Assembly: GCA_946699065.1 (NCBI GenBank)
Contig: CAMPDV010000292.1
Span: 310,001 to 374,000 of the forward strand
DNA length: 64,000 nucleotides
Reading direction: 5' to 3'
Origin: Loxodes magnus
Taxonomy: Eukaryota; Ciliophora; Karyorelictea; Loxodida; Loxodidae
Part shown: positions 11,140 to 55,084 of the stretch, piece by piece
How the letters are laid out: the number at the start of each line of letters is the position of its first letter
Position numbering within the stretch: position 1 is the stretch's first letter
Translations under genes and position numbers: made by a program
The notes under the pieces: generated by a model
Told to the model about the DNA's origin: nothing
The model's database searches: none
Seen by the model: the letters and a program-made list of their open reading frames with translations, nothing else

Positions 11140-13056
11140 ATGTAACCCTAAGCTATCTTTGCTTGCCAACTTTGTTATCAAAGTTGTAATTATCAAGACA
11201 CTAAGTCTCTTACTTTACCTTGTAACCATTCTTTTTGCTTATCTTGTGTTCGCAATCAATTTAAAGATCGAAATTTATTCGAATGCTCAAAATGTTAATT
11301 TGTATACAGCAGTTTGGAAGAAATTTAGTAAACCAATATGAAGGCATTATTAAGCGAAGAAAAAGGGAAATAATAAGAAGCATAGTAAGGAAATACGCAA
11401 ATAGACTCAAAAAGTTAGATAAGGATTCTTTAAGTTGAATCTAGCTAATCTTTTTCTAGTAAAGCAGAACAGAAAATTTTCAAAAACTAAAATATAATAA
11501 ATAAGATAATTTAGTATCTTGATAATTGGGATATTTGCCATCTATAGTGTACTAGTAAATACTTTAATTGCTTTAGATATTATTTAGAAAGAGATTTATG
11601 AATTGGAAAATTAGATGGAGAAGAATTACCTTATGTTAAAAATGAAATAGAATGTGGGCTTAAATAGATTATTTGTTCTGATGTTATTTCCTTAGTAATC
11701 AATGGACAAAAACTATCTGAAAATGCTTGTAACTAAATTTTAAATACGTTTAGCTAAATTATCAAACTCAAAGAAATGGTGAGGCAAAATAAACTAAATT
11801 AAGAATTGGGTGCTTTATATGGAAAACCTTTAAGTAAACTCTCGCTTGGTTCAAGACTAAAGAAATTGAGTTTATTCAATTTAAAAATAAAAGATAATGA
11901 CTTACATTTTCTATAATAATTAAATCAACTAGAATTATTAACTATAGAAAGCAATAACAATCTAATAGGTAGTTTCTTAACCGACTTTTGTATAAACTTA
12001 AGATTAAAATAACTAGAATTTATAAGTGAAAATCTAGATTATGGTTAAGTAAGAAAATACTTAGAATTAAAAGGAACTCTTTTAGAATAGATATAAATAG
12101 GACAAAATGAAGAAATAGAAGATTTTATAGATTTATGTCCTAACTTAAATAAATAAATCTTTTTGTTTGGAAATAAACAGTTAAATGATTAGATTTTATT
12201 AAAACTGAAGCATTATAATATGACAGACTTAAGAATTTAATAATAGAAATTCACTCAATTAACATTTACTAGTTTCTTATCTTTTACATATATTAAAATA
12301 GAAATTATAGAAATAATATGATGTGATAATTTTAATGATGAAAATCTAATTCTTTTATTAAAAAATTTACCTAATCTAAAAACTTTAAGTTTAGGGTTAT
12401 TAAATATATCAGATAATGGTTTTAGAAAAATAGGAGAATATGGATAAAATTACTAAGAACTTCTTATTATTTAGAATAATATAACAGAAGAAACTTTAAA
12501 CTTCATATTTACTAACTGTAGGAAACTTAAAATTATATCATTAATAAGCATAAACTAACTTGAAAGTTAAACTTTAAAAATAATTAACCAGAACTGTGAT
12601 TAAGTTAACAAATTATACTTTAGCAACGTTGGAATAGTTGGATAAGAGTGGATGGAAGAAATAATAAAAATGAAAAATCTCAAAGATTTAAGTCTTATTA
12701 GCTGTAATATTCTATCAGATAACGATATTAGGTAATTAATAATTACTGGGAAAAAATTATATAGCTTGAATATAAATAAAAATAAGTAAATAACAGATTA
12801 AGCTTTTCCAATTTATGATGAATAAGGCTGTATATATCCTATTTATAAAGTTTTAACATATCTAAATATTGAAGAACTACCTTAGATAAGTGAATAGAAA
12901 TTATTAAGTTTGAAAAGACAATTCAAAAGATTATTTATGCAAAACGAAAAAATAGAAAGAGTCGGAATAAATTAAGAAACCAACGAGGTAGATTTTGATT
13001 TAAGAACAAAGATAAATTTTAATGAAGAAGCTTTAAATACTTGAAGAGTGGATTAA
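11140..13056 (+). CDS. RING finger / F-box-like / leucine-rich-repeat protein, copy 1
   Basis: About 638 residues when TAA/TAG=Gln and TGA=Trp. The N-terminal RING is CQLC, then LPCNHSFCLSCVRNQF, then CSKC. A Gln-rich linker follows, then an F-box-like helix set (INKIIQYLDNWDICHLQC, about 11490-11545). After that come irregular leucine-rich repeats such as LPNLKTLSLGLLNIS and MKNLKDLSLISCNILSD, to the end. The Trp of YLDNWDI is TGG here (11527) but TGA in the other copies. In-frame TGAs sit near 11596 and 12319 and at 13042. The proposed stop is TAA 13054-13056, because similarity between copies 1-3 ends there. RING plus F-box-like plus LRR suggests a substrate-selecting ubiquitin ligase. Whether it is expressed is unknown. 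Confidence 0.75.
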
Positions 13057-13369
13057 ATGACATTTAAAACTTCAAATTAAATTTTAATTACTAAATAAGT
13101 ATTGCTATAGTTATAATTATAAATGAAATTGATTATATTTTCTTAGATTTTTCAATTAATTTTACTATCTCTCAAAATTTTATAAAATGGATAAAATTTA
13201 ATTTATACCTATTCCAATTTATTTAAAGAAGTTTTCTATCGATATTTTCAAATTTCTCTTTGTATTCCTTAAGCTATTTTTTAATTTGAAAAAGATTAAT
13301 TATCTTTATTAATTAAATTAAATTAAAATTGAATTTCAGCTTAAAAGCTATTTTGCATCTGATCTACTA
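13057..13369. other. AT-rich spacer
   Basis: 3' flank of the RING/LRR gene; nothing recognised. Confidence 0.5.
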
Positions 13370-14107
13370 CTAGTTTTATTTTTTACCGTATTTTCCTTCC
13401 ACTATGACAATCTAAGATATCAGTATGTCACGAAAGTTTTAGTGTAATTTACCCTCTAAGAGTCCAATTTCTTCTTGAAGTCGGTTTTAATATCTTTGTG
13501 AGCAATTTATTCCCTCCTCGGATTAAATTCAAGAAAAGATTATTTCCATGTTTGTCATGCCTACATTCCTAGGATCCTATATAGCTCAATATATAACCAT
13601 CAGCCATCTATTTACATTTCCAATAAAATACAAAAAACTTAATAGATGATATCCAATATTGCAGCAATGGGAATGTGTTTTGGTTCTAAGGAGGGGTGGT
13701 GCAATAAAATTTAACAAGGAATGTATGTGAGAATTGCTAAAAAGTTTTTTTTTGCACAAGATTGAGCTTAATTTTACCCATAAATCCATAAGCTCAAGTT
13801 CCTTTTAATCTAATTGAGATAGGTCAGCCCACGCATGTCAACACATCCTTTTCAAAGACTCCTTGACAATTACATGAATGTTAAGACAAACAAATCTAGC
13901 TTTTCCCATAGTGAACTTTCCAGTTATTTTGCTGTCATAATCTATCTTAACGCAAGTTCGCAACTCATCATCTCCAAGCTTCACAACATTGTTCTTAGGA
14001 CATAGTAACATTTCCAAAACCAAAAGGCTCCAGTCTGAGTGGAGCATGCGCAAGAAGCGAGAAGAAACCGCAGCTTCTAAATTGTCTCACCTATTATTAC
14101 AACTCAT
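13370..14107 (-). CDS. Unidentified protein in a higher-GC island
   Basis: A single frame from ATG 14107 runs to about 13.37 kb only if TGA is read as Trp: NNRWDNLEAAVSSRFLRML, RMCWHAWADLSQLDQKEL, VIYWAIQDPRNVG and FSWIQSEEGINC each contain one TGA. Under a standard code the frame breaks into two short ones. Base composition is clearly less AT-biased than the flanks, and residue composition (Cys, His, Arg, Trp) looks like real protein. I recognise no family; it has no zinc finger or transposase signature I can name. It could be a fragment of a mobile-element protein or a transferred gene. The exact C terminus is unknown. Confidence 0.5.
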
Positions 14108-19560: not shown

Positions 19561-20102
19561 GTTTCCACTTTATTCCTACATTAGAAATTGCTTTTTTTAA
19601 TATTCTGCTAACTTCAATTACTGAGATTAATTTTCTTTTTTTACTATCTTAAGTTGCTTCTAGCATTCAATTTGATACTCCATTAAGCTTAGAGATATCT
19701 TTCTTAGCTTCTATCTTTCTTTGAAGTATATACAATCCTCTAATCTTTAATTCTCTTATATTAATTGAAATAATTATCTCTTTATTTTTGCATAGAAAAG
19801 GGCTATTCTACTTATCAAGCTTAAATAACTAATACATTTTTGTTAACTGGGAAGACTTCTCAAATTTTAAAGGATTAGTAATATATTTATTCATTTTTTT
19901 CTCCACTACTTCTTAGTCAAATCAAGAATTTACTTCATTTTTTATTTCGAATAAAATCAAATTCAGTAACGTTTTCTGGAATAAATATTTTTCTTTAACT
20001 ATAAAAGAATAATTTAGGATTGTCATTTAAAAGAAGAAATAAATCCATATTATTATCTACTTTATCTTAATTTTTTAATTGATGATATAAATATATCTAA
20101 TA
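19561..20102. other. AT-rich spacer up to the duplication boundary
   Basis: Nothing recognised. Similarity with 50005 onward starts at about 20103. Confidence 0.4.
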
Positions 20103-20699
20103 ATAGCATTTTTATAGTTTATAGTTGTTTAAGTTGTAATTTTACTTTATTAAATCATTTATTAAATAACTTATAATTAATTTCATGCAAAAAATAAATC
20201 ATACATTACAGTATTTCCCTCAAATTTAAAATGTGATTTAAATTAAAAAAATCAGAAAAATGGAGTAGATAGAGATACTATATATTTGGTTATGCGCTTC
20301 ATCGAATCACTTGCTGTTCTATATAATATGAAATAAAAATTACAGGCAGCACAAGGTTTTATACTTTACTAAGCTCATCTATCCTTTTCTTTAATAAATA
20401 TCTATCCTTATTAAATAAATATGAAGCATAATGATAGTATTACATGAAAAAAAATTCAAAATAAAATGTTTATAGAAAAACATCTGAATTTAATTTTATA
20501 TTTAAAATAAGTTATAAGTTTATTATTTAATGATATTCTAAGCAAAAAGTAGTATTGATTAATTAATATAAGATTAAGATTATAAATAATAATTATAATT
20601 TATTTATAATATTCTATTATGAACATTTTTCTTTTAATTTTAGATAATAATTATCAACTAAATAATTATTTAAAAAAAGTTACATACAAATTATTTCAG

Positions 20700-20742
20700 T
20701 TTTAGTGACGAAACTAAAAGTAAGTTTTAATAATTATTAAAA
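20700..20742. repeat. Hairpin plus palindrome
   Basis: TTTTAGT/ACTAAAA with a six-base loop (20700-20719), followed five bases later by the perfect palindrome TTTTAATAATTATTAAAA (20725-20742). Both are preserved in copy B at 50610-50652. Function unknown; either could be a terminator-like or chance AT structure. Confidence 0.4.
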
Positions 20743-22678
20743 CATAAAAGGCTAATAATAATTATATCCGTTTAAATAAATAATCACATAAGAGTTTTTT
20801 TTATTTTTAGCCTTTATTTATTGAAGATTTTCATATTATTTAGTGATTAAAAAAATATTTTACTTCTTTTATTTAATTTACCATTTGCTTCAAAAAATAA
20901 TCATACAATTAATTAAACTTATGCTCAGTGAGCTTAATACTTATGTTTTGGAAATAAAATAAAGTTTTTATTTAAAGTTGTAGCTTGAAGGTTTATATAA
21001 AGTTGTTTAATTCCCATATATATGTTTAATATTTAATTTTATTAATTTAACTAATAATTTTCACATTACTATAAAAAATAAGTAAAATAGTAAAATTTGG
21101 ATTAAAAAGTATTAAAAATGATTATAAAATATTTTAATAATATTGGATTATTAAATTTAATTTCTTAAATGAATGAATATAATAATTATTTTTTATTATT
21201 AATATAAATTAGTAACTTATACTAATTATTTTCCTATTATAATGTTTACTATAATTATTTCATTAATGCTTATTCATTTTTTAATTATAAAAGTTAAAAT
21301 TTATTCTTTTTGAATACTTTAAATTATAAATTTTTGTTAATATATATAAAAGAATATAAATAAAAGTTGAATCACTCAAAAATAAAGATATAAGATTTAG
21401 AATAGTTTAATATTTTAAGATTATAGAGATAAATATTTATATTTATATATTGTTCTATTTTAAGATAAAATTATATAATTTACATTATATAATAATAGTC
21501 TTGCTGTCCCTTAATCTCTTTATATCATCATTTTCTTTTTAACGTTTAAATTTCAAATTTAATTAAATTAAAAATTGCCTTAATAAATTAAACTAGAAAT
21601 TTGCATGTATTTTATTTCTTTATCAACAATAAAAATTAAGTAAACTAAGTTTAAGTTTCATAAAAGAAAATATTTTTAAATTTTGTTTATTTTTAACTAA
21701 CAAGGAACAATATTTTTGCACACTTAAGTTTCTTCCTTTTAACGCTTATATTTTTATGTTTGTAGATATTGATATTTGGCTTGCTTTTCTATCATATCTT
21801 ATTCAATAAATCTTGTTTCTTTCATATCTCAAGACAATATTCATAATGTTATAATTAATAATAGAAATACATTTTTTTTCACTTATTGTAAAATTTAAGT
21901 ATATTCAAGAATTCATACTAACATATTTTAGCATATTGGCTGCATATATTTTAAATTATCTGTCTAGTTTTTTAATATGAATGAATGCTTTAAGATTCAG
22001 TAGTTTTATAATCCCATCATTCAGATGTTTTTATAACTTTTGAATTAGATGAAGTTGAACTTATTTATATTCAGAGTGTTAAATTTTTTTAATGTAAAAA
22101 ATAGCGTAAATTAAATATTTAAGTTAAATCATATAATCTTAAGATTTATCTCTATCTTTTTTTTATTTTTATTATTTCATACCTTATAACTTTTTTATCA
22201 TTAAATCGAATAAAAAACTATCAAGGTAGCTTTTTCGTTTTTAAATAATCTAAAAATTTGCTTTGAGATAATTGTTAAATAATCAAGGAACTGCATGAGA
22301 CACCTGAAACATAAAATTTGAATCCACTAAAATACAAAGCAGATTATATATCTATCAGAATTATTTTGTCTTAAATAATTACAATACAACTAGCAATAAA
22401 AATATACCTTTCCTAAGCATATCTTATTAGCTTCAATTTTATTATAAAATAAGAATTTATCAGCAGGTATATAATCTATATTAAGATTACTAGAACTAAA
22501 TATATAAAAATAGATACATTGAAAGGATATTAAATAAGTCTCTTTTAATTCTAAACTTACCTAAATAAATAAATTAAAATCATTATTTAATTAAAAATTT
22601 TCCATTATAGCTACTTCATTACTTTTCTGTGATTTTGCTATTAGCAAAACTTAAGAATATTTTTTATATCTTTCAACC
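20743..22678. other. AT-rich stretch inside the duplication
   Basis: No gene recognised. Conserved with 50653-52593 only because the segment is duplicated. Confidence 0.45.
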
Positions 22679-23404
22679 ATGTTTTCAATAGCTAACTTTC
22701 TATGTTACTCTGATGGAAATATTGCTAATTTTGTTAAAGAAGCTGAAAATGAAAGCGTATAAGAATCAAAATTTGAATATTATTAAACAATAGATCCACA
22801 ATATCTTACTAATTAATTGATGTGCTTGAGTTTTGAATATAAATGAAATAAAAATAAGTTAAAATAGATGAAGAATCAATTAGTTATTAAAGCAAAATTT
22901 AATAACTAAGAAGCTAAATAATTGAGAGAAGAAAATGATGTTGTAAGGGAATTAAAAAGAACATTAAAAGAGAAAAAAATAATTTCTTTTAATTGACTCA
23001 TTAATAAATTAATTAAGCCCGTATCAGTAGAGTATGCAAGATTTGATCATGCAACTAGATTAAATAACTTAAAAAAAATAAAGACTCGTTAAAATTTAAA
23101 TGCACTTAAGAAAAAATTTTTGAATTTATTTAAAGAAAATAGAAAGAAAGAATAAGATAACTTTCCTCGCCAATGTAAGACATTATAAAATAACATTAAA
23201 TTAAAGAATATTATTAGGTTTGGGAAAGTTAGCATGATTCAACATAAAGCTATGCTTAAAAAATTTGAAAAAACAAATATTTAGATGAATAAAGTAAAGC
23301 AAAACAAAACATCATTGAAAGTTAGCTCAATGAAAAATAAATATTAAACAAGCAAACTTAAAATTTGAAACACAAAATAAAAGTTGGAAGTCGTGTGAAA
23401 ATAA
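22679..23404 (+). CDS. Small basic coiled-coil protein, unrecognised
   Basis: A continuous frame from ATG 22679, about 240 residues. It starts MFSIANFLCYSDGNIANFV, then becomes Lys/Asn/Gln-rich with coil segments (QEAKQLREENDVVRELKRTL) and a basic C terminus. TGA is read as Trp in EYKWNKNK, SFNWLINK and KIWNTKQ. The end is TGA 23396-23398 or TAA 23402-23404. It converges on the RING/LRR gene of copy A. The duplicate at 52594 has a one-base deletion. No known domain; the charge suggests nucleic-acid or membrane-surface binding, which is only a guess. Confidence 0.55.
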
Positions 23405-23526
23405 TTTGAGATATTATATAATAAAACTTAATAAATTTTAATAATATAAAACTTAGTTTTATTTATATATATTAATTATTCTTAATTTTAATCTATAAAA
23501 TTTAATTTTTCACTTTTAAAGAATTT

Positions 23527-25419
23527 TCAGCTCTTCCATTTAGAATGCAATATATTTAAATCAAAATCTACCTCATTAGTTTCTTAATTTAATCCGACTC
23601 TTTCAATTTTTTTGTTTTGTATATATAATCTTTTTAATTGTCTTTTCAAACTTAATAATTTCTATTCACTTATCTAAGGTAATTCTTCAATATTTAGATA
23701 TGTTAAAACTTTATAAATAGGATATATACAGACTTATTCATCATAAATTGGAAAAGACTAATCTGTTATTTACTTATTTTAATTTATATTCAAGCATTAT
23801 AATTTTTTCCCAGTAATTATTAATTATCTAATATCGTTATCTGATAGAGTATTACAGCTAATAAGACTTAAATCTTTGAGATTTTTCATTTTTATTATTT
23901 CTTCCATCCACTCTTACCCAACTATTCCAACGTTGCTAAAGTATAATTTGTTAACTTAATCACAGTTCTGGTTAATTATTTTTAAAGTTTAACTTTCAAG
24001 TTAGTTTATGCTTATTAATGATATAATTTTAAGTTTCCTACAGTTAGTAAATATGAAGTTTAAAGTTTCTTCTGCTATATTATTCTAATTATTAAGAAGT
24101 TCTTAGTAATTTTATCCATATTCTCCTATTTTTCTAAAACCACTATCTGATATATTTAAATCTCCCAAACTTAAAATTTTTAAGTTAGGTAAATTTGTTA
24201 ATAAAAGAGTTAGATTTTCATCATTAAAATTATTGCATTATATTATTTCTATAATTTCTATTTTAATATATGTAAAAGATAAGAAACTATTAAATGCTAG
24301 TGAAGTGAATTTCTATTATTAAATCCTTAAGTCTGTCATATTATAATGCTTCAGTTTTAATAAAATCTAATAATTTAACTGTTTATTTCCAAACAAAAAG
24401 ATTTATTTATTTAAGTTAGGACATAAATCTATAAAATCTTCTATTTCTTCATTTTGTCCTATTTATATCTATTCTAAAAGAGTTCCTTTTAATTCTAAGT
24501 ATTTTCTTACTTAACCATAATCTAGATTTTCACTTATAAATTCTAATTATTTTAATCTTAAGTTTATACAAAAGTCGGTTAAGAAACTGCCAATTAGATT
24601 GTTATTATCATATAAGTTTAATAATTCTAGTTGATTTAATTATTATAGAAAATGTAAGTCACTATCTTTTATTTTTAAATTGAATAAACTTAATTTCTTT
24701 AGTCTAGAACCAAGCGAGAGTTTACTTAAAGGTTTTCCATATAAAGCACCAAATTCTTAATTTAGTTTATTTTGCCTCACCATTTCTTTGAGTTTGATAA
24801 TTTAGCTAAACGTATTTAAAATTTAGTTACAAGCATTTTCAGATAGATACTGTCCATCGATTATCAAGAAAGTAACTTCAGAACAAATAATCTATTTAAA
24901 CTTTCATTCTATTTAATTTTAAACATAAGGCAATTCACCTCCATAAAATTTTCATATTTTTTAATAGTTTTCGTAAAAATATCTAAAACTATAAAAGTAT
25001 TTATTAGTACATTACAAATGACTAATATCTCAATTATCAAGATACTCACATATTTTATTTAGTATATTACGATTACTTTAAAATTTAAATCCAATATTAC
25101 TTTAAAAATCGTTATTAGGGTAATTTTATGATTTGTTTTGCTGTTTTTCTAGGTTAATATGCTTTTTTATAAGTCAAAAATCTTTTTCAATCCCTTTTTC
25201 TCTGCTTTTCACTATTTCACTATTATTTTATTGGATTTCTTCTAAACTGTCATAAGCATTTTAGCATTTAGGACATTCGAATAAATTTCGATCTTTAAAT
25301 TGATTTTGAACACAAGTTAAGCAAAAATTATGGCAGCAAGGTAAAATAAGAGGCTTTCTATCTTGATAATTGTAATTTTGGAAGCAAAGTTGACAAGCAA
25401 GGATAACTTCGGGTTACAT
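23527..25419 (-). CDS. RING finger / F-box-like / LRR protein, copy A
   Basis: About 630 residues from ATG 25419 in one frame. RING: CQLC, LPCCHNFCLTCVQNQF, CPKC. F-box-like ILNKICEYLDNWDISHL follows, with Trp as TGA at 25032-25030. Next is KIWKFYGGELPY with TGA at 24954; copy 2 has TGG in that column. LRRs include LPNLKILSLGDLNIS. The penultimate conserved Trp is TGG here (23538-23536), where copies 1-3 have TGA. The proposed stop is TGA 23529-23527, two codons later. It is convergent with the small basic protein gene. A type I structured element starts about 170 bases upstream in the opposite direction. Likely role as for copy 1. Confidence 0.75.
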
Positions 25420-25560
25420 TATAAACAAAAAAAATCTAAATGATAAAGAAAAAAAATTATAGTGAAATAATAAATAAAAAATGATAATTATTAATAAAAA
25501 AAATGTATGTTATTTACTAATAATATATAGGATTATTTTATTTAGTAATAAATTTAAAAC
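25420..25560 (-). promoter_or_regulatory. Shared upstream region of the RING/LRR family, copy A
   Basis: The reverse complement matches the last ~130 bases upstream of the plus-strand copies, including TATTAATAATTATCATTTTT and ATTTCACT. Confidence 0.45.
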
Positions 25561-25591
25561 TAAAGACAATATTAAATTGGTTTTAATTAAT

Positions 25592-25889
25592 TCATTTCAA
25601 CTAAAAAAGCTTTTCGACCTGAAACTCCTTTCCGATTGCACGACCCGACGCTCTCTTTTTATGGAATAACGGGGATATCCTGCTGTGCTCCAGGCACAGC
25701 TGCTAGGGAGCTCCATCGCTATGAGCAACCAGGCTTCAAGCCCCTACCAAGAGCGGATAATCTCAAAGGCAGCGTTTCCTTCAGAAAATGACTCTGACCA
25801 GGGACTTACTAAGCACAGAAAAGGAACTTGTTCTTAGTCATAAAACCAGAAAGTTTAGTCACGAAGGTAATTCTCAGCTCCTTCCATCT
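25592..25889 (+). ncRNA. Type I GC-rich structured element, copy 2
   Basis: Matches the elements at 7350 and 55257. Hairpin 1 is CTGAAA/TTTCCG at 25619-25634, with one mismatch that is paired in the 55-kb copy. Hairpin 2 is GCTGTGC/GCACAGC at 25682-25700, seven perfect pairs where the 7-kb copy has TGCTTT/AAAGCA. The gag-like sequence at 26035 starts about 145 bases downstream in the same orientation. Confidence 0.65.
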
Positions 25890-26034
25890 TTTCAATTATT
25901 TAAATTGATTTTAATAGTTTCTACATTTATAATAGTTAAATATTAATCGGTTAATTAACTTTATTTTTGTTAAATATTTTTGTTAATTTTAATAAAAAAT
26001 ATTTAAAGTAATATAAATCGTCTAATTATAAATA

Positions 26035-28051: not shown

Positions 28052-28059
28052 AAGTCCTC
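28016..28059 (+). repeat. Paired 3' hairpins of the gag-like element
   Basis: CCAG/CTGG (28016-28031), then GAGG/CCTC around TTGAAAGT (28044-28059). Same arrangement as 15265-15313 but with different stem bases. Confidence 0.55.
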
Positions 28060-35050: not shown

Positions 35051-36982
35051 ATGTAACCTTAAATACTCCTTTCTTGCGACCTTTGCTAACAAAATTACAA
35101 CAGTTAAGATAGAAAGTCTCTTACTTTACCTTGCACCCATACCTTTTGTTCGTCTTGTATTCGCAATCAATTTAAAGATCTAAATCTCTTTGAATGCTTA
35201 AAATGTTAATTCGTTTACAACAGCTTAGAAGAAATGGTATAAACTAATAGTGAGGTAGGATAAAGCAGAGAAAAAGGATAAGAATTGTAAAAATAATAAA
35301 AACTTAGGAAAATAAATTAAAAGGAATAAATAAATATTCCTTAAGTAGATTCAATATTATCCTTTTCAAATAATATTAGATAAATATTTTTTAGAAATCA
35401 CAATATATTAAACAAAATAGTTTAGTATCTTGATAATTGAGATATTTGTCATTTATAGAGTACTAGTAAATTCTATTATAGCTTTAGGTATTATTACGAA
35501 AGAGATTAATTACTATGGAAGTTTTATGGAGGCGAAATACCTTAAATTAAAAATAAAATAGAATGAAGCTTTTTATAAATCATTCGATCTGATGTTAATT
35601 CCTTAACAATTGATGGTCAATACTTATCTAAAAATGTTTGTGAGTAGGTTTTAAACTCCTTTAACTAAGTTTTGAAACTTAAGGAAATAGTGAAGCAAAA
35701 AAATTAAAATAGTGATAAAAATGAAGAGTTAACCTTATTAGCTGGAAAATCTTTAAGTTAACTCTCACTTTGTTCTAGATTAACGAAATTAAGTCTCGAA
35801 AATTTATAAATAGAGGATAATGATTTACATTTTCTATAATAATTAAACTAACTAGAATAATTAAACTTATAAAACAATTACTAACTAACAGGGAGTTTTT
35901 TAAATTATTTTTGCTTAAACTTAAAATTAAAATAAATATTACTTATAAGCAAAAACGTAACTTATTCATTAGTAAGAAAATACTTAGAAGAAAAAGGAAC
36001 TCTTTTAGAATAGATATAAATAGGACAAAATGAAAAAATAGAAGATTTTATAGATTTATGTCCTAACTTAAATAAATAAATCTTTTTGTTTGGAGATAAA
36101 CAGTTAAGTGATTTAATTTTATTAAAATTGAAGCATTATAATATGACAGACTTAAGAATTTGATTATAGAAATTCACTCAATTAACATTTAATAGTTTCT
36201 TATCTTTTACATATATTAAAATAGAAATTATAGAAATAATATGATGCCCTAACTTTAATGATGAAAATCTAATTCTATTATTAAAAAATTTACCTAATCT
36301 AAAGATTTTAAGTTTGGGAGATTTAAATATATCAGATAGTGGTTTTAGAAAAATAGGAGAATATGGATAAAATTACTAAGAACTTCTTATTGATTAGAAT
36401 AATATAACAGAAGAAACTTTAAACTTCATATTTACTAACTGTAGGAAACTTAAAACTATATACTTATTGAATTTAATATAATTAAGAAGTTAAACTTTAT
36501 AAATAATTAATTAGTATTGTGAATAAGTTAACAGATTATACTTTAAAAACTTTGGAATTGTTGGGGAAAATTGGATTTAAGAAATAATAAAAATGAAAAA
36601 TCTTAAAGATTTAAGTCTTATTAACTGTAATATTCTTACTGATAATGATATTAGTTAATTAATAGCAAGTGGAAAAAAATTGTTTAAGTTGAGTATAAAT
36701 AAAAATAAGTAAATAACGGATCAGGCTTTACCAATTTTTGATGAAAAAGGTAGTATTTATCCTATTTATAAAGTTTTAACATATCTAAATATTGAAGAAG
36801 TTCCTTAGATTAGCGAGCAGAGAGCAGTAAGTATGTTTAGATAATTTAAGAAATTTTTAGTTTAAACTGAAAAAATAGAAAGAATCGGATTAAATTAAGA
36901 AACTAATGAGGTAGATTTTAAGTTAAGAACAATACTAGATTTGAAAGAATTAGCTGAAAATACTTGAAGAGAGATGAACTAA
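35051..36982 (+). CDS. RING finger / F-box-like / LRR protein, copy 2
   Basis: About 643 residues. RING: CDLC, LPCTHTFCSSCIRNQF, CLKC. F-box-like ILNKIVQYLDNWDICHL follows, with Trp as TGA at 35438. LLWKFYGGEIP has TGG at 35516, where copy A has TGA. Then KIEWSFLQ (TGA) and LRRs (LPNLKILSLGDLNIS; MKNLKDLSLINCNILTD). The proposed stop is TAA 36980-36982, five codons after the conserved ENTW (TGA 36965). No frameshift was found, so it looks intact. The block around IYLLNLIQLRSQTLQIINQ is the source-like sequence for a patch found in copy B. Confidence 0.75.
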
Positions 36983-40274: not shown

Positions 40275-42197
40275 ATGTAACCTTAAATACTCCTTTCTTG
40301 CGACCTTTGCTAACAAAATTACAATAGTTAAGATAGAAAGTCTCTTTCTTTACCTTGTGGCCATACCTTTTGTTTGTCTTGTATTAGCAATAAATTTAAA
40401 GATCTAAATCTCTTTGAATGCTCAAAATGTTAAAATGTTTATAATAATTTATAAGAAATTCTATAAATTAGTAACTAGCTTGAATAAAACAGAAAAGAAG
40501 GAAAGTAGTAAGAAATTTAATAAAGAAGTACTCTAAATAACTATAGCAATTAGATAAGTATCTCTTAAGTAGATTATAACTAATCTTTTTCCCTTAATAG
40601 CAGATAAATAATTTTAAGAAATCATAATATAATAAATAAGATAATTTAGTATCTTGATAATTGAGATATTAATCATTTATAGTGTACTAGTAAATACTTC
40701 TATAGCTTTAGGTATTATTACGAAAAAGATTTATAAATAGGAAAATTCTATGGAGGTGAAATACCTTATATTAAAAATAAAATAGAATGAACTTTTAAAC
40801 AAACTATTTGTTCTGATGTTACTTCCTTGATAATAAATGGAAATTAACTATCTTAAAATATTAGTAACTAGGTTTTAAGAACAATTAGTTAAATTATATA
40901 ACTTAAAGAAACAGTGAAGCTAAATAAATAAAATATTTAAGAGTTACCCTTATTATATGGAAAATGTTTAGGTGAACTACCACTTTGTTCTAGATTAAAG
41001 ATTCTAAGCTTATATAATTTTTAAATAGAGGATAGTAATTTATAATTTCTTTAATATTTAAATAATTTAGAATAATTAAACTTATAAGGCAATGATAAAC
41101 TAACAGGGAGTTTCTTTAATGATTTTTGTTTGATTTTAAAACTAAAATAAATAAAATTTATAAGTAAAAATATGAATTATGGATTAGTAAGAAAATATTT
41201 AGAAATAAAAGGAAATCTTCTATAATAGATATAGATTGGTAATAATGAAGAAATAGAAGATTTTATAGATTTATGCCCTAACTTAAATAAAGAAATCTAT
41301 TTGTTTGGAAATAAACAGTTAAATGATTAAATTTTATTAAAATTGAAGAATTATAAAATAACAGACTTAAGAATAAACTCATAGATTTTCTCTACAGTTA
41401 CTTTTAATAAATTCTTATCCATCAATTAAACTAAACTAGAACTAATAGAAATCTTAGGATGCCCAAATTTTAACGATGAAAATCTAACTCTTTTGTTAAC
41501 AAATTTACCTAATCTAAAAACTTTAAGTTTAGGAGTTAACAGTGTATCAGAAAAAGGTTTTAGAAAAATAGGAGAATATGGATAAAATTACTAAGAACTT
41601 CTAATAAACTAGAATAATATAACAGAAGAAACTTTAAACTTCATTTTTACTAATTGTAGGAAACTTAAAATTATATGATTAATAAATATAAACTAAATTC
41701 AAAACTAAACTTTAAAAATAATTAATCAGTATTGTGATTAAGTTAACAGATTATACTTTAATAACTTTGGAATTGTTGGGGAAAATTGGATTTAAGAAAT
41801 AATAAAAATGAAAAATCTTAAAGATTTAAGTCTTATTAACTGTAAAACTCTTACTGATAATGATATTAGTTAATTAATAGCAAGTGGAAAAAAATTGTTT
41901 AAGTTGAACATAAATTAAAATAAGTAAATAACGGATCAGGCTTTTCCAATTTTTGATGAAAAAGGTAGTATATATCCTATTTATAAAGTTTTAACTTATC
42001 TAAATATTGAAGAATTTCCTTAGATTAGTAAATAGAAATTATTAAATTTGAAAAAATAATTGAAAAGATCATGCATATAAAATGAAATTTTAAAAAGAAT
42101 AGGACTGAATGAAGAAACAAATGAAGCTAATTTTGATTTAAAAACAATGATAAACCTAAATGTTGAATCTAAAAATGCTTGAAAAGAACAGAACTAA
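40275..42197 (+). CDS. RING finger / F-box-like / LRR protein, copy 3
   Basis: About 640 residues, one frame. RING: CDLC, LPCGHTFCLSCISNKF, CSKC. YLDNWDI has Trp as TGA at 40662. KFYGGEIPY is preceded by GGA (Gly) where copies 2 and A have Trp. KIEWTFKQ has TGA. LRR blocks are intact; EILGCPNFNDENLTLLL has GGA where copies 1 and 2 have TGA. Similarity to copies 1 and 2 ends at TAA 42195-42197, after NAW (TGA 42180) KEQN. The most divergent copy, and apparently intact. Confidence 0.72.
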
Positions 42198-44067: not shown

Positions 44068-47000
44068 TCATTTTTCTTCAATTAGTTCTTCTTTCTATTC
44101 ATCTTTAGTTTCTTCCTTTTTTGCTTTCTCCATTTCTAGAATCTCAAGTCTCCTTGTCATTAGTTTCTTATGAAATATTTTGATCTATAAGTCTAAATAC
44201 TCCAATTTAGACCTTGAAAATGAGTTTAGATATTCTTGATCGTATAGTATAAGGCGCCTTAAGTCATAATTTCCGATCTTTTCCGATAATCAATTCATTA
44301 TATTAGAATAGTACACACATTTAAAGATATGCTCGAAAGTTTCATACTCTCCACACTTACAAAAGGGATTATCAATGGGGTAATGACGATCTTAAAGATC
44401 CTTACGGAAATTATAAGTTTAGGTTCTAAGTTTATATATACTGATAATTTCTCGTCTATACTATTTGTTTAATTTAGTATAAGTAATTTGTGGAAATTGT
44501 TAAAGATTACCAAATTATTCAGTATATACTTTAGCTGTTTTCATCCTCATAAATTTTTTAGTAGCTACTTTGTAGAAATATTGTTGTATTTTTTCTCTTA
44601 CATGTTTAGTAAAAGTTTTAAGATTGGTATTATTCTATTAATTCTGCAGATCGATATTATAAAGGTCTGATAATTGCTATACTTAATCGTAGTATTGAAA
44701 TTCTTTTTTTCATATATTAATGAAAAGAGAGCCTATTGTTGATCTTGGAAAATCAGTACTTTCTTATTTAATTTTATGGTAGAATCTGAAGAATTTTATA
44801 GCCATAATGTGCTTAAAGGGTAATCAATTCAGGTCTATATAACATGATTCATTAAATGTTGAAGTTGCTACTTAAAAAGCTTTTCTTGAAATTAATCTCA
44901 TGCTTGATTCTATTCTGTTCAGAACTCCAGTTACTCCTTTTTGAATATTTCATGGTACTAAGTCTCCTCCATATTCTGCTTAAGGTAATGTAAAAAGTCT
45001 ACATAAAGTTTTAAAATGCCAAGGAGTTGCATTCTTATATCTCATCAGTTAAAAAACAGCTTTCTTCATTGCAACTATATATTTAAATGCAACTTCTTTG
45101 CAATGGGGATTTAAGTTCTTCTTCTGATGTAGAATAACTCCTAAATATGTTATTTGTTCTTTTTAAGCAATTGGTTAATTTCCTAATTATAAATTTAAAA
45201 TTTATTATTTCTGATTCTTCTTTAGAAATTAGATGCATTCAAATTTGGTAATATTAATCTTTAAATGTGTTCATGCAAAAACTTTATTTGCTTCATTTAT
45301 TAAATTCTACATCTACTTTGCAGATTTGGAAAGAAGAATAAGATCATCTGCCCATCCTCTACAAGCGAAGCTAATACTTGAATCCTGGCATTTAAATCCC
45401 AATTAGTTACTTTTACTTTCCAAATATCTAATTACTATGTCATAATACAATAATGCTAAAACTGGTCCATGAGAACTTCCTTACATAACTCCATTGTTGA
45501 ATTATAAAATTCTGGTGCTCTTACCGTCTATGATAAATGAAGAATTTAGGTTTTTATAAAACGATTTTAAGGCTATTATTATTCCAAGTGGTAGTTTAAC
45601 TCTCTTAAGTTAATCAAAAAAGAGTCTTCTTTCTATTGAGTCAAACATTTTTTCAACGTCTATCAGTGTTGCTATCAATTTAGTCTTACCTTTAGCACAT
45701 TTCCGATAGTTATCAATTATTTGCTATATTATTCAAATTTATTAAGTTGTTTATCTGTTTTTCATAAATCCCATTTATGAAGGGTGAATCAAATTTCTCT
45801 AATAAATCAGATTGTATAGTCTTTTTGTTAAAGCTTTATCATATAGTTTTAGAATAGTATTAATAAGAGAAATAGGTAGTCAGTTTTTCCAATCATTTTT
45901 ATTTCCTTTTTTAAATATTGGAATTATCACTGATATATTTAATTCCTAAGGGATTCTTCCAAGTCTTAGCATATTATTCAGAAAAGAATGAAGAATTATT
46001 AATAAATATTATCCACCATATTTCAGAAGTTCGCCTTTTATTCCATCTCGACCAGCTGCTTTTCGATTCATAATTTCTTATATTTCATTTATGGTAAAAA
46101 GATCAAATCCTTACAAATACGAGAGTGGATAATCTTTAATTTCTTAAATATTATAGTATATTTTATCTATTTTTTAGTTACTAAGATTTATCTATTCTTG
46201 AGTTAGATTAGAATGCTTGTTAAAAACACAATTTTCCCATGATTCAATGAATTTATTTTTGATTTCTTAATTAAAGTTCATAGTATTTCTCTTCAAAGGA
46301 TTTAGAATTTTCTTAGCTTGCAAAAAAATTTCCTTAGGATCTCCATTAAGAAGTAGAAACTGCTTTTTTGCTTTGTTTTTTTTTAAATTTTCATAGATTA
46401 TACTTGAAGTCTTTCCAAAGTCGTTTTGCTGCCTCATGAAGATTAGTTACTTGCTAGTTTATTCTTCCAAATTTTACGTGAGCTTCCTTATATTCCGAGT
46501 TAGCTCTTTTTGCCTCTATATATTTCTTTATGAGAGCTCGAGGAAGTTTGTTATAATTTGAGTCTGGAATAAACGAACCTAATGTTTGATCAGCATTTTC
46601 TTAAATATTACTTTTGATGCATTCATATTAATCTTCAAGATTATCTTAATCTATTTAAAAGAATTCTAGATAAGTTTGTAGGAAAGATTCTTAATATTTT
46701 TGCCTATCTATTGCATCTTATAACCTATTTATTTTATATTTTCTCTGAGTTATATTTTCCCAATATACTATAGAATTATTGATAAAGTCGACAGTGATTG
46801 GAATATGATCAGAAAATAAACTATTACTATGAGCAGTGAAATTTTCAAACTAATTAACGTTCAAATGGTTGTTTATAATGATATAATCATTACAATACGT
46901 TTTTCCTGTTCCTTTGTGAATACATGTATTAATGTTGCTATCATTCACTATCTCAAGATCGTTTTATAGTAAGAATTCTTATAGTCTAATGTTATTATCA

Positions 47001-47848
47001 TAAGCATTTTCAGGATTATCACCGAAACCTTATAAAAGAGCATTGAAATCTCCCATTAGTATATGTGGATTATCATTATATAAATTCAGCAATGTATTTA
47101 GTTGTTCATAAGCTAAATTTTTAACATCTTAACTTTTTCCATTATCAGGCATGTAACAAGACGTGATTAAAATATTATCCAGTTTAATTGTTATGAATCT
47201 ATTTATTTCTTTTTCAACTTATATATGTATTTCTGTACTATTAAATTCTTCTCCTATAATTAAGCATACACCTCCTCCTTTTCCTGAGTTCTTAAAATAT
47301 GTTTTAAATCCATTTATCAATATTGGAGGAAAGTCATCTATTTATCAGGTTTCGTATATTGATAAAATATCTATACTGTTATCTCTGATAAATTCTTCAA
47401 TATTCAAGCACTTGCTCGCTATTCCATTAATATTTATATGTCCCATCTTTATTTTTTAAATTTATTAGTCCTTTCCAATTTTTTCCGATCCTGCAGGTAG
47501 ACCACTTTCGTAAATGCAAATGCTTTTCTATCCTTATTGGTTAATCTAAATATGTACTAATCTTTTTCCATACTCAGGATGTTAATGAAAATATTGTATC
47601 AAAATAAAAACATTACGTCGTATATTTTTTAAGTATTTTCTATCTATATCAATTTTACTTTTCACACTATCACATGTACCTTATTCTAAATCTTAAGTAA
47701 CTGTGACGTATCTACCCTATATATTGTACATTTCGTACTATGGACGTCTTCAAGTTTCGGATTTAATAAACTTTTAAAGTTATAGACTAGTCAGATTGAA
47801 ATAACATATTATTTAATCGCACTCTTTTTTATTATTATGTTTACTCAT
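44068..47848 (-). CDS. LINE ORF2: AP endonuclease and reverse transcriptase
   Basis: About 1,260 residues from ATG 47848. Order: N-terminal basic region; APE-type endonuclease (GHININGIASK, DILSIYETW, GGGVCLII, MGDFNALLQGF at 47053, SDHIPI at 46813); RT (NDWKNWLPISLINT at 45890, LIDVEKMFDSIERR, GVMQGSSHGPVLALLYYD, GWADDLILLSKS at 45355); thumb; and the C-terminal LINE zinc motif CKCGEYETFEHIFKC (44361-44317). The frame shifts by one base at an A9 run (46376-46384). TGA replaces Trp at 47752, 47347, 46393, 45882, 45735, 45273, 44952, 44826, 44712 and 44292. Several of these are family-conserved Trp positions (ETW, NWxPIS, Wxx-LKIN). The tandem TGA at 44070-44065 may be the stop. Makes the nick and copies element RNA at the target. 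Confidence 0.88.
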
Positions 47849-47882
47849 ACGTTTTGCTGGCGGAATTGTTTTATCTTCTTCT

Positions 47883-49694
47883 TCATGTTTCCTTTTAAGA
47901 ATATTAAGATTAATATTGGAAGATAAGGTTTAATTCTGATAAATAGCATCGATCGAATCTGTTTAGTTTTATTAATCTTTTTTTCATCTTTTAGTAGAAT
48001 AATTAAATATATCTGTTTTCAAAATTTTAATTAAGTTTTTAAAACTCTTCTATTTTTATCTCAAGTGTCTACATATTTTGGGTACTTTAAATGAATTTTA
48101 AGTTGAGTTAGTGATATTAATGCTATAGTAAAACAAAATCTTCATCTGGCAATTTTATTTGACAGTATTAGTTATTATGTTATGTTATAATAGTATTAGT
48201 TTATGCTTCCTATTAATTAATTTAAGTTTACATTGACTTTTCTTGCTTGATTATATTTGTTTGAGTAAATTTTTGACACAAAAAAGCTGTTTATTATTCA
48301 TTTATATTATCTGTTTAGATAATACTATCCTTTGTTTAAATATTTCCATATAGTGTCTAAGTTTATGCATCTACAAATTACTTCTTCTAAAATTACTATT
48401 AATTACTAAATTCTTTTGTATGTTAGGTTTAATTCTAAAATAATTCTTTATACATTTTAATTTCCTTATTTTTTAATAGAATTTAATTTTGAAAAGCTAT
48501 ATTTATTTCATAGTTTTATTATCTTTACTTATCTAATTCGATTTTAAAAGTTAAAATTTCCATTTAAGCTTTCTATTCTTAATCTATAAATTACTTATTT
48601 TAGTTTTATAATTTTTAATATTAAGAATATAACTCTTGGAGTTAAATTTCGTTTATTATTTTTTATTAGGTAATTTGTTGAAGTAAATATTAACTCTATT
48701 CTAATATAGTCTATTGATTTCCTTGCTAAGTTTTATTTAGAAAGTTATCTATTTCAATTTAAGTAAAATTTCTAATTTTATTAAAGTTTTGGCATAGTGA
48801 ATTATTTACTCCTATCATTTAAGCTTAAGTAAAGCTTTAATTAGCATTGGCTTCAATTTGAATCTCTTAATTAGATTATATTTCATCTATTGAATTGACT
48901 TAATTCTCATAGTTTTTCTATTATATCTAAATTTCTTGAACTATACTAATTATTTCATCTGTTTAAACTATTTAGTTACTGTAATAAGTGGAGAAGTTTG
49001 CTTAAGTAATTTTATGAACTAGTTATTTTGATAGCATTTTTTTGTGATATTGCTATATATCAGATTTGATTGACTAAAAATTGTTCTATAATTGTTTATA
49101 TTTCTAATAAATTTTATTTATATAAGTTTTATAATATATTTTGGATATTTCTTAGTTATTTATCAATGTTTCAATATCTCGTTCATATTTTGCTTTTATA
49201 TTAATTAGCATTTCATTTAATTATTGGTTCTTATCTATAAGTCTTTATATATTATGTTTAAGTTCTTTTATTTCTAAGGTAAATAAATTCTTATTAGACT
49301 AATTAATTATTTGATTTTATATTACATTTCTTAAATCAGCAGTTTAATTTTAAGGTTGTTTACTCTGAAGATCAGGTAAATAATGATTATTTGAATTATC
49401 AGGATTAGTAATATTATTTTATTTCTGACTAATTTCGTTATTTGAAATTTAATAGAATTGTTAATTAGTATTATTCAAAAATTAATCTTAAGTTTATGTT
49501 ATTTTTGACTACCATAAAAGGATATCTTTATTTGAATTTTAATTAGGATTTGAAGGTATATCTTTTGAATTCTAACTATCTAAGATAATATCTTATTTTT
49601 TTAAAGATTTCTTAGGTAATCGTTTCGTATCTTTCGCGGTATTATTTTAGGCGGTTAATCTGTTCATCTATTTATAGGTTGATTTCACTTTCAT
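47883..49694 (-). CDS. LINE ORF1: Gln/Asn-rich coiled-coil protein
   Basis: A 603-codon frame from ATG 49694 to TGA 47885-47883 with no internal TGA and one TGG. The N terminus is basic (MKVKSTYKQMNRLTAQN). Gln/Asn/Ile-rich sequence and a long coiled coil follow (LEIKELKHNIQRLIDKNQQL), and the C terminus is Lys/Arg-rich (QKMKKRLIKLNRFDR). There is no CCHC knuckle or recognisable RRM. ORF2's ATG lies 35 bases downstream in another frame. An alternative is that the last part shifts into the ORF2 frame, where LKRKHEEEDKTIPPAKRMSK looks like a nuclear localisation signal. Expected role: binding element RNA. Confidence 0.65.
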
Positions 49695-50004
49695 AATACG
49701 CTACAATTAATATCCACGTTGAAGAGAGTTCCTAAGTAGTTTTAATGGGACGCGTATGAATTTGCTTTCCGGTTTTTGACTACAATTTTTAAGTAGTTGT
49801 CTTAATAAATTCATTATTAGGTTTACTTATTTAATTTGTAGTTACTCCAAATCTTTCGTTTGGAGACTTTAATGCACCTGCCTATGCTTTTCCTATGAAT
49901 TTGCAGCTTCTTTGAAATTAATTAAAGAAGAGTCACTATTAAAAACTAGTGAATTCTATATTTCATCCATTCTTTTCCCCCACAATTAAGATAATTTTAA
50001 TAGC
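49695..50004 (-). promoter_or_regulatory. Probable LINE 5' region
   Basis: About 310 bases between ORF1's ATG and the start of duplication copy B, slightly richer in G+C than its surroundings (for example GGGACGCGTATG near 49747). By position this is the LINE 5' UTR and internal promoter; no motif proves it. Confidence 0.35.
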
Positions 50005-50609
50005 ATTTTTATAGCATATAGAAGTTTAAGTTGTAATTTTACTTTATTAAATCATTTATTAAATAACTTATAATTAATTTAATGGAAAAAATAAATCATA
50101 CATTACAATATTTCCCTCAAATTTAAAATATGATTTAAATTAAAAAAATAAGAAAAATGGAGTAGATAGAGATACTATACATTTAGTTATGCGTTTCATC
50201 AAATCACTTGCTATTCTATATGATAAGAGATAAAAATTACAGAAACCACAAGGTTTTATACTTTACTAAGCTCATCTATCCTTTTCTTAATAAATACCTA
50301 TCCTTATTAAATAAACTATGAAGCATAATATTATTTTAAAATTAAATTAAAGAATAAAATTAATAAAAATAAAATGTTTATAGAAAGGCATCTAAATTTA
50401 ATTTTATATTTAAAATAAGTTATAAGTTTATTATTTAATGGTGATCTAAATAAAAAAGTAGTCTTGATTAATTAATATAAGATTAAGATTATAAATAATA
50501 ATTATAATTTATTTATAATATTCTATTATGAACATTTTTCTTTTAATTTTAGATAATAATTATCAACTAAATAATTATTTAAGAAAAGTTACATTCAAAT
50601 TTATTTCAG

Positions 50610-50652
50610 TTTTAGTGACGAAACTAAAAGTAAGTTTTAATAATTATTAAAA
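50610..50652. repeat. Hairpin plus palindrome (copy B)
   Basis: Identical arrangement to 20700-20742: TTTTAGT/ACTAAAA, then TTTTAATAATTATTAAAA. Confidence 0.4.
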
Positions 50653-52593
50653 CATAAAAGGCTAATAATAATTATATTCGTTTAAATAAATAATCACATA
50701 AGAGTTTTTTTTATTTTTAACCTTTATTTATTGAAGATTTTCATATTATTTAGTGATTAAAAAAATATTTTACTTCTTTTATTTAATTTACCAATTGCTT
50801 CAAAAAATAATCATACAATTAATTAAACTTATGCTCAGTGAGCTTAATACTTATGTTTTGGAAATAAAATAAAGTCTTGATTTAAAGTTGTAGCTTGAAG
50901 GTTTATATAAAGTTGTTTAATTCCCATATATATGTTTAATATTTAATTTTATTAATTTAACTAATAATTTTCACATTACTATAAAAAATAAGTAAAATAG
51001 TAAAATTTGGATTAAAAAGTATTAAAAATGATTATAAAATATTTTAATAATATTGGATTATTAAATTTAATTTCTTAAATGAATGAATATAATAATTATT
51101 TTTTATTATTAATATAAATTAGTAACTTATACTAATTATTTTCCTATTATAATGTTTACTATAATTATTTCATTAATGCTTATTCATTTTTTAATTATAA
51201 AAGTTAAAATTTATTCTTTTTGAATACTTTAAATTATAAATTTTTGTTAATATATATAAAAGAATATAAATAAAAGTTGAATCACTCAAAAATAAAGATA
51301 TAAGATTTAGAATAGTTTAATATTTTAAGATTATAGAGATAAATATTTATATTTATATATTGTTCTATTTTAAGATAAAATTATATAATTTACATTATAT
51401 AATAATAGTCTTGCTGTCCCTTAATCTCTTTATATCATCATTTTCTTTTTAACGTTTAAATTTCAAATTAAATTAAATTAAAAATTGCCTTAATAAATTA
51501 AACTAGAAATTTGCATGTATTTTATTTCTTTATCAACAATAAAAATTAAGTAAACTAAGTTTAAGTTTCATAAAAGAAAATATTTTTAAATTTTGTTTAT
51601 TTTTAACTAACAAGGAACAATATTTTTGCACACTTAAGTTTCTTCCTTTTAACGCTTATATTTTTATGTTTGTAGATATTGATATTTGGCTTGCTTTTCT
51701 ATCATATCTTATTCAATAAATCTTGTTTCTTTCATATCTCAAGACAATATTCATAATGTTATAATTAATAATAGAAATACATTTTTTTTCACTTATTGTA
51801 AAATTTAAGTATATTCAAGAATTCATACTAACATATTTTAGCATATTGGCTGCATATATTTTAAATTATCTGTCTAGTTTTTTAATATGAATGAATGCTT
51901 TAAGATTCAGTAGTTTTATAATCCCATCATTCAGATGTTTTTATAACTTTTGAATTAACTTAGATGAAGTTGAACTTATTTATATTCAGAGTGTTAAATT
52001 TTTTTAATGTAAAAAATAGCGTAAATTAAATATTTAAGTTAAATCATATAATCTTAAGATTTATCTCTATCTTTTTTTTATTTTTATTATTTCATACCTT
52101 ATAACTTTTTTATCATTAAATCGAATAAAAAACTATCAAGGTAGCTTTTTCGTTTTTAAATAATCTAAAAATTTGCTTTGAGATAATTGTTAAATAATCA
52201 AGGAACTGCATGAGACACCTGAAACATAAAATTTGAATCCACTAAAATACAAAGCAGATTATATATCTATCAGAATTATTTTGTCTTAAATAATTACAAT
52301 ACAACTAGCAATAAAAATATACCTTTCCTAAGCATATCTTATTAGCTTCAATTTTATTATAAAATAAGAATTTATCAGCAGGTATATAATCTATATTAAG
52401 ATTACTAGAACTAAATATATAAAAATAGATACATTGAAAGGATATTAAATAAGTCTCTTTTAATTCTAAACTTACCTAAATAAATAAATTAAAATCATTA
52501 TTTAATTAAAAATTTTCCATTATAGCTACTTCATTACTTTTCTGTGATTTTGCTATTAGCAAAACTTAAGAATATTTTTTATATCTTTCAACC
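50653..52593. other. AT-rich stretch inside duplication copy B
   Basis: Counterpart of 20743-22678; nothing recognised. Confidence 0.45.
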
Positions 52594-53317
52594 ATGTTTT
52601 CAATAGCTAACTTTCTATGTTACTCTGATGGAAATATTGCTAATTTTGTTAAAGAAGCTGAAAATGAAAGCGTATAAGAATCAAAATTTGAATATTATTA
52701 AACAATAGATCCACAATATCTTACTAATTAATTGATGTGCTTGAGTTTTGAATATAAATGAAATAAAAATAAGTTAAAATAGATGAAGAATCAATTAGTT
52801 ATTAAAGCAAAATTTAATAACTAAGAAGCTAAATAATTGAGAGAAGAAAATGATGTTGTAAGGGAATTAAAAAGAACATTAAAAGAGAAAAAAATAATTT
52901 ATTTTAATTGACTCATTAATAAATTAATTAAGCCCGTATCAGTAGAGTATGCAAGATTTGATCATGCAACTAGATTAAATAACTTAAAAAAAATAAAGAC
53001 TCGTTAAAATTTAAATGCACTTAAGAAAAAATTTTTGAATTTATTTAAAGAAAATAGAAAGAATGAATAAGATAATTTTCCCCGCTAATGTAAGACATTA
53101 TAAAATAACATGAAATTAAAGAATATTATTAGGTTTGGGAAAGTTAGCATGATTCAACATAAAGCTATACTTAAAAATTTGAAAAAACAAATATTTAGAT
53201 AAATAAAATAAAATAAAGCAAAACAAAACATCATTGAAAGTTATCTCAATGAAAAATAAATATTAAACAAGCAAACTTAAAATTTGAAACACAAAATAAA
53301 AGTTGGAAGTCGTGTGA
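52594..53317 (+). pseudogene. Small basic coiled-coil protein, frameshifted duplicate
   Basis: Same start and body as the gene at 22679, but the stretch around 53170 has lost one A (ACTTAAAAATTTG versus GCTTAAAAAATTTG). The last third is therefore out of frame, and the end TGA (53315) is in a different frame from ATG 52594. Confidence 0.6.
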
Positions 53318-53445
53318 AAATAAGTTGAGATATTATATAATAAAACTTAATAAATTTTAATAATATAAAACTTAGTTTTATTTATATATATTAATTATTC
53401 TTAATTTTAATCTATAAAATTTAATTTTTCACTTTTCAAGAATTT

Positions 53446-55084
53446 TCAGCTCTTCCATTTAGAATGCAATATATTTAAATCAAAATCTACCTCATTAGTT
53501 TCTTAATTTAATCCGACTCTTTCAATTTTTTTGTTTTGTATATATAATCTTTTTAATTGTCTTTTCAAACTTAATAATTTCTATTCCCTTATCTAAGGTA
53601 ATTCTTCAATATCTGTTAACTTATTCACAATACTAATTAATTATTTATAAAGTTTAACTTCTTAATTATATTAAATTCAATAAGTATATAGTTTTAAGTT
53701 TCCTACAGTTAGTAAATATGAAGTTTAAAGTTTCTTCTGTTATATTATTCTAATCAATAAGAAGTTCTTAGTAATTTTATCCATATTCTCCTATTTTTCT
53801 AAAACCACTATCTGATATATTTAAATCTCCCAAACTTAAAATCTTTAGATTAGGTAAATTTTTTAATAAAAGAATTAGATTTTCATCATTAAAATTATCA
53901 CATCATATTATTTATATAATTTCTATTTTAATATATGTAAAAGATAAGAAACTAGTAAATGTTAATTGAGTGAATTTCTATTATTAAATTCTTAAGTCTG
54001 TCATATTATAATGCCTCAGTTTTAATAAAATCTAATCATTTAACTGTTTATTTCCAAACAAAAAGATTTATTTATTTAAGTTAGGACATAAATCTATAAA
54101 ATCTTCTATTTCTTCATTTTGTCCTATTTATATCTATTCTAAAAGAGTTCCTTTTAATTCTAAGTATTTTCTTACTTAACCATAATCTAGATTTTCACTT
54201 ATAAATTCTAATTATTTTAATCTTAAGTTTATACAAAAGTCGGTTAAGAAACTGCCAATTAGATTGTTATTATCATATAAGTTTAATAATTCTAGTTGAT
54301 TTAATTATTATAGAAAATGTAAGTCACTATCTTTTATTTTTAAATTGAATAAACTTAATTTCTTTAGTCTTGAACCAAGCGAGAGTTTACTTAAAGATTT
54401 TCCATATAAAGCATCCAATTCTTAATTTAGTTTATTTTACCTCACCATTTCTTTGAGTTTGATAATTTAGCTAAACGTATTTAAAATTTAGTTACAAACA
54501 TTTATAGATAGATACTATCCATCGATTATCAAGAAATTAATGTCAGAACAAATAATCTATTTAAACTTTCATTCTATTTAATTTTAAACATAAGGCAATT
54601 CGCCTCCATAAAATTTTCATATTTTTTAATAGTTTTCGTAAAAATATCTAAAACTATAAAAGTATTTATTAGTACATTACAAATGACTAATATCTCAATT
54701 ATCAAGATACTCACATATTTTATTTAGTATATTACGATTACTTTAAAATTTAAATCCAATATTACTTTAAAAATCGTTATTAGGGTAATTTTATGATTTG
54801 TTTTGCTGTTTTTCTAGGTTAATATGCTTTTTTATAAGTCAAAAATCTTTTTCAATTCTTTTTTCTCTGTTTTTCACTATTTCACTATTATTTTATTGGA
54901 TTTCTTCTAAACTGTCATAAGCATTTTAACATTTAGGACATTCGAATAAATTTCGATCTTTAAATTGATTGTGAACACAAGTTAAGCAAAAATTATGGCA
55001 GCAAGGTAAAATAAGAGGCTTTCTATCTTGATAATTGTAATTTTGGAAGCAAAGTTGACAAGCAAGGATAACTTCGGGTTACAT
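53446..55084 (-). pseudogene. RING finger / F-box-like / LRR gene, copy B, broken
   Basis: Near-identical to copy A at both ends: RING domain from ATG 55084, and the same C-terminal KWKS then TGA 53448-53446. A 254-base deletion (junction at 53612/53613) removes LRR sequence and shifts the frame. Next to the junction the sequence (53613-53770) no longer matches copy A but matches copy 2 (35051-36982) closely. The following part (53880-53960) matches copy 1 better than copy A. The gene is thus a mosaic and probably non-functional unless the new frame is tolerated. Confidence 0.7.

Follow-up and report, generated by a model that had tools for sequence, protein, structure and literature searches.

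In-frame TGA codons in a RING/F-box-like/LRR gene family of Loxodes magnus and their probable reading under the karyorelict nuclear code

In karyorelict ciliates, including Loxodes, nuclear genes are translated with NCBI genetic code table 27, in which, according to PMC11441545, UAA and UAG encode Gln, and UGA is the only stop codon but also encodes Trp at a sufficient distance from the poly(A) tail. The same paper describes a depletion of coding UGA over about 20 codons ahead of the stop, refers for the code to Swart et al. 2016 (PMC4967479) as well as to Seah et al. 2022, and gives a size of 706 Mbp for the macronuclear (MAC) assembly of Loxodes magnus. Here we analysed a stretch of 64,000 nucleotides (G000:C292:310001-374000, hereafter the window) from an L. 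magnus assembly of 705,730,643 bases in 7,843 contigs, and focused on five related gene copies whose reading frames are interrupted by TGA. With a probability of about 0.93, we consider that the window belongs to the nuclear genome of L. magnus translated with table 27, and that the five copies belong to a large family encoding proteins with a RING finger, an F-box-like stretch and leucine-rich repeats (LRR), in which in-frame TGA encodes Trp and the frames end at TGA. In such genes TAA and TAG would be read as Gln, an internal TGA would be read as Trp by tRNA-Trp, and a TGA near the 3' end of the mRNA would be read as stop. The position dependence of this reading is taken from the literature, and we infer that Trp is inserted in vivo at each single in-frame TGA of the copies. 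The code behind these stop-like codons is already described and is ordinary for the organism, not new; as it was published before, no current view is changed. The case shows that an ambiguous genetic code can be recognised from nothing but raw sequence, and the genes of the L. magnus genome need to be read with table 27.

TGA at tryptophan columns of actin-family genes

The first-pass annotation of the window had proposed, from the five copies, that TGA is read as Trp alongside TAA and TAG as Gln. This proposal is supported by actin-family genes outside the window, as well as by the published code of the organism. We aligned 18 rows from the 96 actin-family matches in the genome, which represent one gene family, and ten rows of CCT genes; the alignments omit L009 and L088, and from the 30 top actin loci (L009-L038) only L012 was used. 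The actin rows contained 17 TGAs in well-occupied columns, and 11 of these were on columns with a majority residue. Eight of the 11 sit at Trp columns, while Trp accounts for only 4 of the 265 majority columns (binomial 4e-13, a nominal value as the rows are related). The rows carrying TGA at Trp columns were widely divergent, with L071, L072, L078 and L079 being mutually 38-59% identical. Moreover, five TGAs of the related rows L073-L077 shared one column that is otherwise occupied by Y, F, H, I or L. TGA was absent from the 43 top-scoring of the 96 actin matches and is therefore avoided in those genes. The first-pass annotation had named conserved genes without TGA at conserved Trp sites as evidence that would speak against its proposal; in the actin family, TGA was observed at such sites.

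TAA and TAG occurred in frame throughout the CCT and actin genes. Gln was the commonest column residue for both TAA (27/73) and TAG (12/38) in the actin rows, and TAG was found on Gln in 3 of 13 cases in the CCT rows. The CCT alignment contained no Trp-majority column and hence was useless for testing TGA as Trp. One CCT TGA, in L069, was located in a mostly aromatic column (F, Y, W, A, P).

In addition, equal-scoring actin genes were present many times over on few contigs (C266, C405, C707, C711, C524, C1162 and C1812; loci L012-L038). A tRNA-His gene was located at a nearly fixed distance in 26 of these 27 loci, the exception being L013 on C405.

Reading frames and TGA/TGG columns of the five copies

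The five frames named in the first-pass annotation, which start at 11140 (+), 35051 (+), 40275 (+), 25419 (-) and 55084 (-) of the window, were compared as DNA and by codon. Under table 11 the whole window holds a single open frame of at least 100 codons, which is exactly 100 codons long. When TAA and TAG are taken as Gln, copies 1-3 are broken by TGA alone, and copies A and B additionally by frameshifting deletions. Copy 1 (11140..13044, +; 634 codons) has in-frame TGA codons at 11599 and 12319, a TGG at 11527 and a terminal TGA at 13042-13044. In copy 2 (35051..36967, +) the in-frame TGAs are at 35438, 35564, 36161 and 36242, the TGG is at 35516 and the terminal TGA at 36965-36967; copy 3 (40275..42182, +) has in-frame TGAs at 40662, 40788 and 41676 and a terminal TGA at 42180-42182. 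On the other strand, copy A (23527..25419, -) contains TGAs at 25176, 25032, 24954 and 24906 and its frame ends at TGA 23529-23527, and copy B (53606..55084, -) contains TGAs at 54841, 54697, 54619, 54571 and 53905 and ends at TGA 53608-53606. In the DNA alignment, copy A lacks 2 nt close to its 3' end, which shifts the frame of its last six codons. Copy B is the sister of copy A, with 97% identity over aligned bases; the loss of about 250 bp has cut its C-terminal part short, and its frame is shifted as well.

Pfam searches of copies 1 and 2 indicated an N-terminal RING-like finger followed by an F-box-like stretch and LRR repeats. LRR_At5g56370 was above the cut-off in both copies; only copy 2 reached the cut-off for zf-C3HC4, and neither copy reached it for the F-box. 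When trained on conserved genes, a coding scan picked out no more than seven short stretches; retraining with the window family added made the scan partly circular, so its use was limited to choosing stretches for Pfam. Copies A and B lie within two direct segmental duplicates, each some 10 kb long (20101-30453 and 49998-60093), which show 89-99% identity in the listed repeat blocks.

All codons on which the first-pass annotation had based its claim of TGA/TGG interchange are present at the positions it gave, and the codon alignment bore out the first of its three columns. At the Trp of the motif YLDN-W-DI (column 504), copy 1 has TGG (11527..11529, +) and TGA is found in copies 2 (35438), 3 (40662) and A (25032), and also in copy B (54697). 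The interchange also stood at W-KFYGG (column 582), where copy 2 has TGG (35516..35518, +) and copies A (24954) and B (54619) have TGA, but this is not a fixed Trp site, as copies 1 and 3 have GGA there. The third column, a supposed C-terminal Trp, proved to be a misalignment: copies A and B lack 2 nt directly ahead of it, so that the TGG at 23538 falls at column 2012 in a shifted frame and is not homologous to the terminal TGA of copies 1-3. The latter occupies column 2031 (13042..13044 in copy 1, +), which holds TGA in copies 1-3, TTA in A and TGA in B, and to judge from the alignment it looks like a true shared stop, not a Trp column as had been claimed. Past this probable stop the identity drops clearly in two of the three pairs among copies 1-3 and slightly in the pair c2-c3. 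The further suggestion of the first-pass annotation that no codon is reserved for stopping agrees with table 27, where UGA is the sole stop and also a Trp codon.

The five-copy alignment has 8 internal TGA columns among its 634 codon columns. TGA also occurred in 2 of the 3 columns holding TGG, compared with 6 of 221 other columns with a codon that is a single step away from TGA (Fisher p=0.003, indicative only, given the relatedness of the copies and the apparent exchange of sequence between them). At the Trp column at 12649, which is present in copies 1, 2, 3 and A and deleted in B, all four copies have TGG. The last internal TGA precedes the terminal TGA by 241, 241, 168 and 459 codons in copies 1, 2, 3 and A, respectively. 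These distances agree with a depletion of coding TGA ahead of the stop, but the TGAs in the four genes are so few that chance would be expected to give the same.

Constraint past the TGAs and competing explanations

Reading-frame constraint extends beyond the TGAs in most of the pairs tested. We applied a site-shuffle test with 200 shuffles each to seven of the ten copy pairs, leaving out c1-B, c2-B and c3-B. The in-frame ratios of nonsynonymous to synonymous differences (pN/pS) were 0.44-0.58 over the seven pairs, with site-shuffled means of 0.67-0.82. In five of them the values of 0.44-0.54 stood against shuffled means of 0.75-0.82, and none of the 200 shuffles was as low. Downstream of column 1308, where copies 1 and 2 have a TGA in common, the ratio for c1-c2 was 0.38 compared with 0.77 after shuffling (0/200), and c2-c3 and c1-c3 also fell under every shuffle, while c1-A was not significant (26/200). 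Downstream of column 1527, the pair c3-A was under every shuffle. Plain dN/dS values (nonsynonymous to synonymous substitution rates), computed for all ten pairs and without a null, were 0.36-0.57. Moreover, a genome search with copy 1 yielded 3,181 candidate places, 70 of which were scored, copies 1, 2, 3 and A of the window among them. All 70 scored members carry in-frame TGAs, 1-6 each and 253 in total, and in 66 the alignment exceeds 600 residues.

Several observations speak against reading in-frame TGA as Trp. Six of the 8 internal TGA columns lack TGG in any copy, and their partner codons (TAG/TAA; TTA/TAA/AAA; TGT; TAA/AAC; GGA/TAA; TCA/TAC) include those for Gly, Cys and Ser. For this reason the window family constitutes modest, suggestive evidence, which by itself cannot prove that TGA would be Trp. 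Three of the 11 majority-column TGAs in actin were on a Phe, a Gln and a Val column, one each, and one further actin TGA shared a mixed column with Gly and Arg. Among the CCT rows, TAA fell slightly more often on Glu (9/46) than on Gln (7/46), and a second CCT TGA (L070) was in a column made up of E, Q, K, M and L; 20 of 22 full-length CCT matches had no TGA, which is uninformative given the missing Trp-majority column. Constraint was weak in c1-A, where 8 of 200 shuffles reached an equally low value, and was not significant in A-B (36/200), and the purifying selection may partly predate some of the TGAs, with gene conversion blurring the signal. Finally, the truncated copy B may be dead and is outside the 70 scored members.

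If TGA were only a stop, the copies would be pseudogenes in which nonsense mutations had been spread by duplication and gene conversion. We considered this explanation first, since TGG is missing from most of the internal TGA columns, and it gains from the several TGAs at Gln, Gly, Cys or Ser columns, from the abundance of recent duplications in the window and from the damage to copies A and B, one with the 2-nt deletion and the other truncated. It was dropped on the actin alignment, where TGA stands at conserved Trp columns of paralogs. The frame constraint found beyond the TGAs in most pairs and the published code of L. magnus also argue against it. Furthermore, it would require all 70 scored members to be dead, yet in nearly all of them more than 600 residues can be aligned, and it is hard to see how 70 family members with intact frames could all be dead genes. 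Thus, we regard the pseudogene explanation as very unlikely. Selenocysteine as the meaning of the TGAs in the family was not preferred either, as the interchange is with TGG; no search for selenocysteine insertion sequence (SECIS) elements was made.

It is possible, at somewhat less than even odds, that TGA is a sense codon in the genome but that copy B, and perhaps copy A, is decaying, so that some of their TGAs reflect drift and are not selected Trp codons. This would be compatible with the reading of TGA as Trp and stop, and it fits the deletion and the frameshift in B and the lack of significant constraint between A and B. However, copy A can be aligned with 622 residues of copy 1, and the pair c3-A is constrained (0/200), including the part past column 1527. 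A further alternative is an ambiguous code of the kind reported for Condylostoma magnum, in which each of the three codons also serves as a stop. In its favour, the sense meanings are identical to those of the C. magnum code as given in PMC4967479. However, the terminal TGA common to copies 1-3 speaks against such a code, and PMC11441545 describes UGA as the sole stop of Loxodes; we regard this code as very unlikely. Translation with table 27, with TGA as Trp inside the genes and as stop at their ends, remains the explanation that we favour.

Decoding components, neighbouring features and known codes

To look for decoding components in the genome, we used patterns combining an anticodon loop, with CCA or UCA, and a T arm (gap 11-15), with the reversed pattern as control. 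The tRNA-Trp(CCA)-like pattern had 126 matches, compared with 12 in the control, and 99 of the 100 listed places form tandem arrays on two contigs: 48 places with a spacing of about 187 bp in the listed part of the array at G000:C67:482323-491201, and 51 places with a spacing of about 241 bp in that at G000:C148:155464-169180. According to PMC13092985, the tRNA-Trp(CCA) of Loxodes has a 4-bp anticodon stem, a form shown elsewhere to read UGA. The UCA pattern had 14 matches (on C45, C227, C444, C558, C561, C594, C921, C1144 and C7715), compared with 5 in the control, and in all 14 the spacing was one base longer than in the listed CCA matches. These places may equally be another repeat, and a dedicated cytosolic tRNA-Trp(UCA) that would read UGA directly, besides the near-cognate tRNA-Trp(CCA), appears highly improbable. 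A match from an earlier anticodon pattern with a looser gap (18-30), L089, was judged by eye to be no tRNA. The eRF1 N-domain search gave one candidate on C2, and two weaker candidates are located on C196.

For tRNA-Sec, three matches exceeded the Rfam cut-off (C30:829388, C6:804625 and C6:164898) and 49 more were under it; of 14 control genomes, 5 likewise had matches of this family over the cut-off. UGA may thus have a third meaning in this genome, selenocysteine, which PMC4967479 reports for two other ciliates.

Two other features were noted in the window. A LINE-like (long interspersed nuclear element) sequence at 44833-47884 (-) has endonuclease and reverse transcriptase domains in two adjoining stretches, with TAA/TAG and TGA in frame. 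At 766-1536 (-) there is a ubiquitin-specific protease-like domain with NYSWL where solved relatives have NTCFM; the Cys of NTCFM we take to be the catalytic Cys of ubiquitin-specific proteases, and judging by this motif the domain seems to have lost it. The reverse transcriptase and ubiquitin-protease frames had no decisive conserved Trp columns.

Compared with the karyorelict nuclear code of table 27, as in Loxodes, no difference was found: TAA and TAG stand for Gln, TGA for Trp and probably also for stop, and the copies of the window are members of one gene family under this table. Blastocrithidia and Amoebophrya belong to lineages unrelated to Loxodes. Their codes (Amoebophrya Kv in the latter case) are alike in that UGA is Trp with a 4-bp-stem tRNA-Trp(CCA), according to PMC13092985 and PMC12005148, but Blastocrithidia differs in that UAR stands for Glu and UAA also serves as a stop (PMC12153298). 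The code of Condylostoma magnum, as described in PMC4967479, resembles that of the window in having UAA and UAG as Gln, UGA as Trp and context-dependent termination near the 3' end. However, all three codons end genes in C. magnum, whereas the frames of the copies described here end at TGA.

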